Shown here one piece after another: positions 61,775 to 64,000 of a stretch of DNA of 64,000 nt. Numbering within the stretch: position 1 is the stretch's first letter; each line of letters opens with the position of its first letter. The translations under genes and the position numbers were made by a program. The notes under the pieces are model-generated. The model was not told the origin of the DNA. It did not search any database and saw only the letters and a list, made by a program, of their open reading frames with translations. The stretch is from Acidimicrobiales bacterium (lineage in GTDB: Bacteria > Actinomycetota > Acidimicrobiia > Acidimicrobiales > Aldehydirespiratoraceae): contig JAKMFW010000082.1 of the NCBI GenBank assembly GCA_022425325.1, forward strand, positions 1-64,000. The letters run 5' to 3'.

Positions 61775-61864
61775 TGGCGGAAGGTATGGGATTCGAACCC
61801 ATGGTGACCCGGAGGCCACAACGGCTTTCGAGGCCGCCCCATTCGTCCGCTCTGGCAACCTTCC
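61775..61864 (-). tRNA. tRNA-Ser (CGA), CCA encoded
   Basis: Reverse complement GGAAGGTTGCCAGAGCGGACGAATGGGGCGGCCTCGAAAGCCG...GGTTCGAATCCCATACCTTCCGCCA; class II with long variable arm; anticodon CGA. Confidence 0.96.
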
Positions 61865-61980: not shown

Positions 61981-62520
61981 TCAGGCGCGCTCGGCGGAAA
62001 GGACGACCGTGCCGTCGGCGGTTCGGAGTTCGAGGGTGGTGCCGTCGAGGACGAACCCCGTGACCTGGAGCCAGGCGGCGGGCAGGGCGATGTTCTGCTC
62101 GCCGAGGCCGAAGTCGCAATAGGCCTCTTCGGTCACGCCGGGGGCGATGGTGAGGGCCTGACCGTTGACGCCGTCGTGCACGCCGGTGGTGCGGTAGGTC
62201 GTGTCGCCTCGGTTGCAGCCGGTGTGGAAAACGAGCGAGCCGTCAGCGGTGAAGGTGAGTTCCGGTACGGCGCCGCGGATCGTTACGTCGCTGAACCGAC
62301 CTTCGCGGTCTTGATAGGCCTGAATCAACCAGCGACCGAGGAGGTCGTCGCTCGCGTCTTCGGCAATGACGGCCTCGGTCGTGGTGGTCGATTCGTCCAT
62401 CGGTGTGGGGCCGCTCGTGGTCGGTGGGCCGGGCGGACCCGGCGTGGCGGTGTCGTCGCCGCACGAGGCGCCTCCCAGGCCGAGGAGAAGTACAACGAGT
62501 GCACTGGCGAATCGACGCAC
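61981..62520 (-). CDS. lipoprotein with META/HslJ-like domain
   Basis: Lipobox LLLGLGGASCG; LLGRWLIQAYQDREGRFSDVTIRGAVPELTFTADGSLVFHTGCNRGDTTYRTTG; GTG start. Confidence 0.65.
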   Translation of the reverse strand: MRRFASALVVLLLGLGGASCGDDTATPGPPGPPTTSGPTPMDESTTTTEAVIAEDASDDLLGRWLIQAYQDREGRFSDVTIRGAVPELTFTADGSLVFHTGCNRGDTTYRTTGVHDGVNGQALTIAPGVTEEAYCDFGLGEQNIALPAAWLQVTGFVLDGTTLELRTADGTVVLSAERA

Positions 62521-62522
62521 GG

Positions 62523-62969
62523 TCAGTCCCTCGCCGCAAGGTAGGTGGTGAGCAGGGCGGCGCACTCCGGGGCTCGCACGTTGTGGATTGTGACGAATTC
62601 GCGGCCGAGTCGAGGGTCGGCGCCGACCTGGTAGAGCGATCCGACCGCACCTCCCGACAGGTCGGGAATGCCGAAGACGACTCGTGCCATGCCGGCGTCG
62701 AGGATTGCGCCGGCGCACATGACGCTCGGCTCGATCGTGACGGCGATCGTTGCACCGTCGAGCCGCCTCGACCCGACGTGAGCGGTGGCGTCGCGGATGG
62801 CGAGGAGTTCGGCACAGGCGGTCGGATCGCCGAGGCGTTCGCGTTCGTCGTGGCGGCTGGCGATCACCTTGCCGTCGAGCAGGATCACGGCACCGACGGG
62901 AACGTCGCCGTGGTCGATCGCTGCCGTGGCCTCGGCAAGAGCCAGCCCCATGAGTTCGTCGTCGGTCAC
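62523..62969 (-). CDS. TadA-like tRNA-specific adenosine deaminase homolog with altered zinc-ligand motifs
   Basis: VPVGAVILLDGKVIASRHDERERLGDPTACAELLAIRD...TIAVTIEPSVMCAGAILDAGMARVVFGIPDLSGGAVGSLYQV; adjacent to tRNA-Ser; GTG start. Confidence 0.85.
   Translation of the reverse strand: MTDDELMGLALAEATAAIDHGDVPVGAVILLDGKVIASRHDERERLGDPTACAELLAIRDATAHVGSRRLDGATIAVTIEPSVMCAGAILDAGMARVVFGIPDLSGGAVGSLYQVGADPRLGREFVTIHNVRAPECAALLTTYLAARD

Positions 62970-63084: not shown

Positions 63085-64000
<916 letters not shown>

Follow-up and report, generated by a model that had tools for sequence, protein, structure and literature searches.

A native tadA gene with a disrupted zinc site, probably displaced by a second TadA, in a marine Acidimicrobiaceae lineage

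Introduction

TadA is generally regarded as a near-essential enzyme encoded by one gene copy. The window analysed here, a 64,000-nucleotide stretch of an Acidimicrobiales genome assembly (G000; 95.3% complete, in 102 contigs), contains a tadA gene whose product reads CAE instead of HAE and PSVMC instead of PCxxC. Does this lineage edit its tRNAs with an unusual zinc site, has the protein turned to a new substrate, or is it a deaminase no longer? The initial annotation of the locus, which saw one zinc ligand swapped and another lost, offered all three answers.

Results

The variant gene and its locus

The reading frame, its coordinates and the TGT and AGC codons are exactly as first described, and the catalytic Glu and second Cys said to be retained are both in place (Table 1). 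Pfam and NCBIfam put the protein in the TadA/cytidine-deaminase group. Against the NCBIfam TadA model (NF008113) it scores 110 bits, under the 150-bit equivalog cut-off, but the canonical TadA of the relative G008 also falls short at 141 bits, so the cut-off alone proves nothing about the variant. Homology to TadA spans the whole length, in sequence and in fold, as had been claimed: the closest solved chains are TadAs, and an AlphaFold model built with 30 aligned relatives (mean pLDDT 91.9) has best PDB matches that are all TadA at a TM score of about 0.92.

Table 1. Features of the variant tadA locus in the window, and related loci elsewhere
Feature	Position	Strand	Remarks
Variant TadA (TadA-A') CDS	62526..62969	-	GTG start, 148 aa; stop codon 62523-62525; basis: frame, TadA fold, NCBIfam
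Codon 52, TGT, Cys replacing zinc-ligand His (S. aureus H53)	62814..62816	-	TGT in G004, TCT (Ser) in G006
Codon 54, catalytic Glu kept	62808..62810	-	
Codon 82, AGC, Ser replacing first zinc Cys of PCxxC (S. aureus C83)	62724..62726	-	
Codon 85, second zinc Cys kept (S. aureus C86)	62715..62717	-	
Codon 41, Asp replacing invariant wobble-adenine-binding Asn (S. aureus N42)	62847..62849	-	
Codons 143-144, YL replacing near-invariant FF of RNA-contacting C-terminal helix	62538..62543	-	C-terminus ...YLAARD vs FFxxR(R)
META-domain (HslJ-like) putative lipoprotein gene	61981..62520	-	Starts 2 bases past tadA stop, same strand as tadA
tRNA-Ser(CGA)	61775..61864	-	Native tadA locus marker in the family
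KAS III-like (ACP_syn_III) gene, divergent from tadA	63085..64000	+	Extends beyond window end; syntenic in G002, G004, G006
tRNA-Leu(AAG) of G000	C61:34765-34849 (locus L065 10766-10850)		
Deaminase-like protein of G000, contig C97	L002 1465-1923		HGE/PCDMC
TadA-B loci	L033 5605-6075; L035, L036, L037, L038, L039, L267, L268		
TadA-B-linked hemB	L033 3561-4574; L282 1793-2803; L283 7729-8739		
Unrelated bases at G006 contig end C110	L068 1-250		
Second TadA of G127 (G127b)	C20:39419-39856 (loci L169 301-738, L266)		

The tRNA-Ser gene said to lie beside tadA is tRNA-Ser(CGA), and the same neighbourhood surrounds canonical tadA in G008, G010, G012 and G076. In our protein tree the variant falls inside the family's native TadA clade (36 rows, 99/95), near the canonical copy of G008 (G008_A), on a stem of 0.73 as against 0.16 for G008_A. 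Judged by both locus and tree, the variant is the native tadA, in keeping with the original view of it as the orthologous copy.

The substitutions are real and rare

Sequencing error is excluded by G004 (MAG NP57), a genus-mate species whose orthologue, 92% identical at the protein level and at the syntenic locus, carries the same TGT and AGC codons. The orthologue of G006 has TCT (Ser52) and AGC (Ser82), giving SAE/PSVMC, and keeps one of the three zinc ligands. A sequencing or binning artefact might be suspected, given that the assemblies are MAGs and that the G006 gene falls on two contig ends, one of which carries unrelated sequence, but the recurrence of identical codons in an independent orthologue with conserved synteny leaves this explanation a practically negligible chance. 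At the contig end concerned, about 250 unrelated bases are joined to the variant tadA after codon 49, representing either a chimeric end or an insertion.

The initial annotation had raised the possibility that CAE/PSxxC is a common form. Alignment at the motif columns speaks otherwise: HAE and PCxxC are found in 75 of 76 other TadAs (74 from related genomes and two from a GTDB search), the sole exception being a second copy in G127 (G127b, with TALAG and EPGPMC).

Losses beyond the zinc site

Structure work on S. aureus TadA assigns zinc binding to H53, C83 and C86, proton shuttling to E55, binding of the wobble adenine to N42 and reading of the 32-38 pair to K106 and N123 (PMC8216470). At the equivalents of H53/C83/C86/E55/N42/K106/N123 the variants have C/S, S, C, E, D, S and G. 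The window's protein, 42% identical to S. aureus TadA in the structural alignment, thus shows changes beyond those first reported, namely D41, S105, G122, R123, Y143-L144 and a missing C-terminal Arg. N41D, K105S, N122G, F143Y, F144L and loss of the C-terminal Arg after FF are common to the variants, which also depart from near-invariant residues by W68R and R93G. Compared with a functional TadA, then, the variants retain the catalytic Glu54, Cys85 is the only zinc ligand kept in all of them, and the residues for anticodon-loop recognition (D41, S105, G122 and Y143-L144 in the window's protein) have been replaced. From these combined losses, of zinc ligands, wobble-binding Asn, 32-38 readers and C-terminus, we infer that the variant has probably lost deaminase activity.

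An alternative is a deaminase that has taken on a new substrate with a remodelled zinc site, Cys/Cys(/Ser). Such neofunctionalisation would fit the retention of Glu54 and the second Cys as well as the purifying selection reported below, and cytidine deaminases do use CAE. In G006, however, Cys52 is Ser, leaving one thiolate; all three variants have Ser for the first Cys; the substrate residues N41 and FF are lost too; and the H123 position is variously R, H or Q. We consider such a new enzyme improbable.

A second TadA of a different clade

G004 and G006 each encode, along with the variant and at another locus, a canonical HAE/PCxxC TadA, here called TadA-B, that is 53-54% identical to the variant. 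TadA-B forms a separate clade (100/100) that also takes in the TadAs of G001, G003, G005, G007 and G021 and one TadA of G127 (G127a), a genome from a different family. From this one protein tree, of about 150 columns, TadA-B was apparently gained horizontally; an old duplication followed by many losses may be an alternative origin. In G001, G004 and G006 TadA-B is adjoined by hemB. TadA-B-linked hemB shares only about 47% identity with its counterparts in sister species, and this low identity suggests that a hemB-tadA-B cassette displaced both native genes.

Native copies have met several fates in other genomes. G002 bears a deletion scar that joins the opening codons of tadA-A, all that is left of the gene, to the end of the adjacent META gene; most of the META gene was lost along with tadA. 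No native tadA copy was found in G003 or G007 (98% and 93% complete). In G127 the second copy, G127b, falls outside the TadA-B clade; it is located about 4 kb from a tRNA-Ser(GGA) and has His->Leu, Glu->Gly and Cys->Gly changes and an Arg-less C-terminus. This degeneration is independent of that of the variant and is a parallel case in another TadA-B genome.

Our preferred reading, to which we assign a probability of roughly 0.78, is that the variant is catalytically dead and has been displaced by TadA-B. Retention of Glu54 counts somewhat against it, since a fully relaxed relic would not need this residue.

A new tRNA-Leu accompanies TadA-B

tRNA-Leu(IAG) is known from Lactobacillales, and bacterial tRNA-Leu(AAG) genes have been described as almost confined to Bacilli (PMC13249217). 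We found tRNA-Leu(AAG) in 24 of 397 related genomes, spread over several families and in places replacing tRNA-Leu(GAG). This set (loci L240-L265) is an expansion of A34 tRNAs outside Bacilli. Our literature searches of open-licence papers returned no report of tRNA-Leu(AAG) in Acidimicrobiia, nor of TadA pseudo-paralogues such as the variant.

Within the family (50 genomes), tRNA-Leu(AAG) is confined to G000, G001, G003-G007 and G021, and each of these except G000 has TadA-B. tRNA-Leu(GAG), present in G008 and most other family members, was not seen in the genus members bearing tRNA-Leu(AAG); G021 has both. CTC makes up 52% of Leu codons in the window's ORFs, so I34 should be needed to decode them.

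TadA-B has Glu and Arg as its 32-38 readers in eight of eight cases; in other TadAs the first is Lys (58/67) and the second Asn (63/67). The anticodon loop of the family's tRNA-Leu(AAG) has U32/U38, that of tRNA-Arg(ACG) C32/A38, and in G109 and G121 a tRNA-Leu(AAG) with A38 goes together with ordinary TadA reader residues. From the changed readers and this U32/U38 versus A38 pattern we infer that TadA-B would have a widened tRNA specificity and act on tRNA-Leu(AAG). The variant is not required for this tRNA: G003 and G007 have tRNA-Leu(AAG) and no variant.

The window's own genome

Checks suggested by the initial annotation included a genome-wide search for a second HAE/PCxxC TadA and for tRNA-Arg(ACG). 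Neither was found in the G000 assembly, and both are present in the relatives G004 and G006. The absence of TadA-B from assembled G000 is a point against displacement, as its presence there has to be deduced. The only other match, on contig C97 (28%), was rejected as a second TadA, being a distant nucleoside-deaminase-like protein; it has orthologues in the genus.

Could the variant then still deaminate tRNA A34 for the lineage by means of an unusual zinc site? No other TadA was seen in assembled G000, a genome that has tRNA-Leu(AAG) and the CTC-rich usage given above. Against this, relatives with the same variant keep canonical TadA-B, and other genes are likewise unassembled: tRNA-Arg(ACG), as noted, and hemB, which was absent from G000 and G002 and found in all the others of 12 genomes tested; the absence of the linked hemB points to a gap. 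We therefore think continued A34 editing by the variant very improbable. What stands of the initial three-way reading is the swapped ligand, the lost ligand and the pseudo-deaminase option; a lineage with an unusual zinc site does not stand, with the close relatives that carry the variant owning a canonical TadA of another clade and G006 down to one ligand.

The presumed gap can be placed approximately. In G004, the hemB and tadA-B pair is flanked by a sugar ABC operon on one side and tRNA-Leu(AAG) on the other. In G000, contig C94 begins inside an apparent sugar ABC operon and contig C61 ends soon after tRNA-Leu(AAG), continuing for about 115 bases beyond it into sequence without a match in G004. 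The hemB-tadA-B block of G001 and G006 borders sequence homologous to G000 C94:11117 onward. A direct junction of tadA-B with tRNA-Leu(AAG) in G000 was not upheld, given the C61 tail unlike G004 and the C94:11117 border in G001 and G006. With hemB missing and the ends of C94 and C61 flanking the block, the simplest reading is that the TadA-B of the window's organism lies in an assembly gap between these two contigs, a bracketing that rests on a 71-base hairpin match and the split sugar ABC operon.

Selection on the variant

Within the variant clade omega is 0.13-0.30 (NG86 and YN00, comparisons with most sites). TadA-B has 0.06-0.13 and two neighbouring genes 0.03-0.13. Amino-acid changes in the variant clade are significantly fewer than in neutral simulation (P at most 0.002). 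All three species share the loss at both ligand sites; on the simplest reading, this loss predates their divergence and the substitutions that separate them. The variant is thus under purifying selection after ligand loss, looser than that on its neighbours and with positions 52 and 123 free to vary. A displaced protein of this kind is not simply drifting, which weighs against our preferred reading in its plainest form.

Purifying selection after active-site loss is also what a non-catalytic subunit would experience, and the variant might be an ADAT3-like partner that heterodimerises with TadA-B, an idea compatible with both catalytic death and displacement. The predicted fold core is intact, an intact TadA-B is found in the same genomes (G004 and G006; in G000 by deduction only), TadA-B genomes have an extra A34 substrate, and ADAT3 is likewise devoid of catalysis and of the C-terminal helix that contacts RNA (PMC8216470). 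Deletion of the variant in G002 and its absence from G003 and G007, near-complete genomes that have tRNA-Leu(AAG), on the other hand, argue that the tRNA-Leu(AAG) system can do without it. The variant and TadA-B moreover belong to different clades at 53% identity, and ADAT3 shows the reverse pattern, keeping all zinc ligands and losing Glu. We regard the partner role as possible, albeit unlikely.

Discussion

The history that we favour for the native tadA of this marine Acidimicrobiaceae lineage would run as follows. Its product most likely stopped deaminating tRNA, and editing would have passed to TadA-B, a canonical enzyme from another clade that was apparently acquired horizontally. TadA-B came with changed 32-38 readers (Lys->Glu, Asn->Arg), and its arrival appears to coincide with that of a new tRNA-Leu(AAG), with a U32/U38 loop, replacing tRNA-Leu(GAG). 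With TadA-B serving both tRNA-Arg(ACG) and tRNA-Leu(AAG), the native copy would have been free to lose ligands, substrate residues and C-terminus, persisting as a folded pseudo-deaminase in three species and being deleted in a fourth (G002).

Set beside bacterial TadA (S. aureus 2B3J, E. coli 1Z3A; NF008113), the variant is alike in fold, length, native locus and family clade and in keeping the catalytic Glu and second zinc Cys; it differs in its zinc His (Cys or Ser), first zinc Cys (Ser) and wobble-adenine Asn (Asp) and in lacking the 32-38 readers and the FFxxR(R) C-terminus. Like eukaryotic ADAT3/Tad3p, it would be a TadA-derived pseudo-deaminase accompanied by an active homologue in the same genome, with a degraded RNA-contacting C-terminal helix. 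Unlike it, the variant has lost ligands, kept Glu and gained no extra domain, whereas ADAT3 has His/Cys/Cys, a Glu->Val change, an Asp as fourth zinc ligand and an N-terminal RNA-binding domain. The ADAT3-type Asp cap pattern is also absent: G000 and G004 have a C-terminal Asp, and G006 ends in AAVA. That the variant and TadA-B form a bacterial parallel to ADAT2/ADAT3, in which a dead, maintained native protein partners an imported TadA of wider range and the pair arose with an A34 tRNA-Leu, seems to us a doubtful proposition.

The tRNA-Leu(AAG)/TadA system of Lactobacillales (PMC13249217) is similar in that an A34 tRNA-Leu replaces the G34 form and needs a TadA able to act on it. In Lactobacillales both jobs fall to the existing TadA; here, a distinct TadA clade seems to be involved, along with the probable death of the native enzyme.

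Under our preferred reading of death and displacement, a diverged homologue has apparently replaced TadA on at least two occasions, the native copy surviving in each with its active site broken. This displacement goes together with a newly arisen tRNA-Leu that requires inosine. The variant gene should accordingly be kept from annotation as a tRNA deaminase. The lineage may serve as a natural test case for how the tRNA range of TadA broadens, here by two residue swaps at the 32-38 readers, and for whether pseudo-deaminase partners arise readily.
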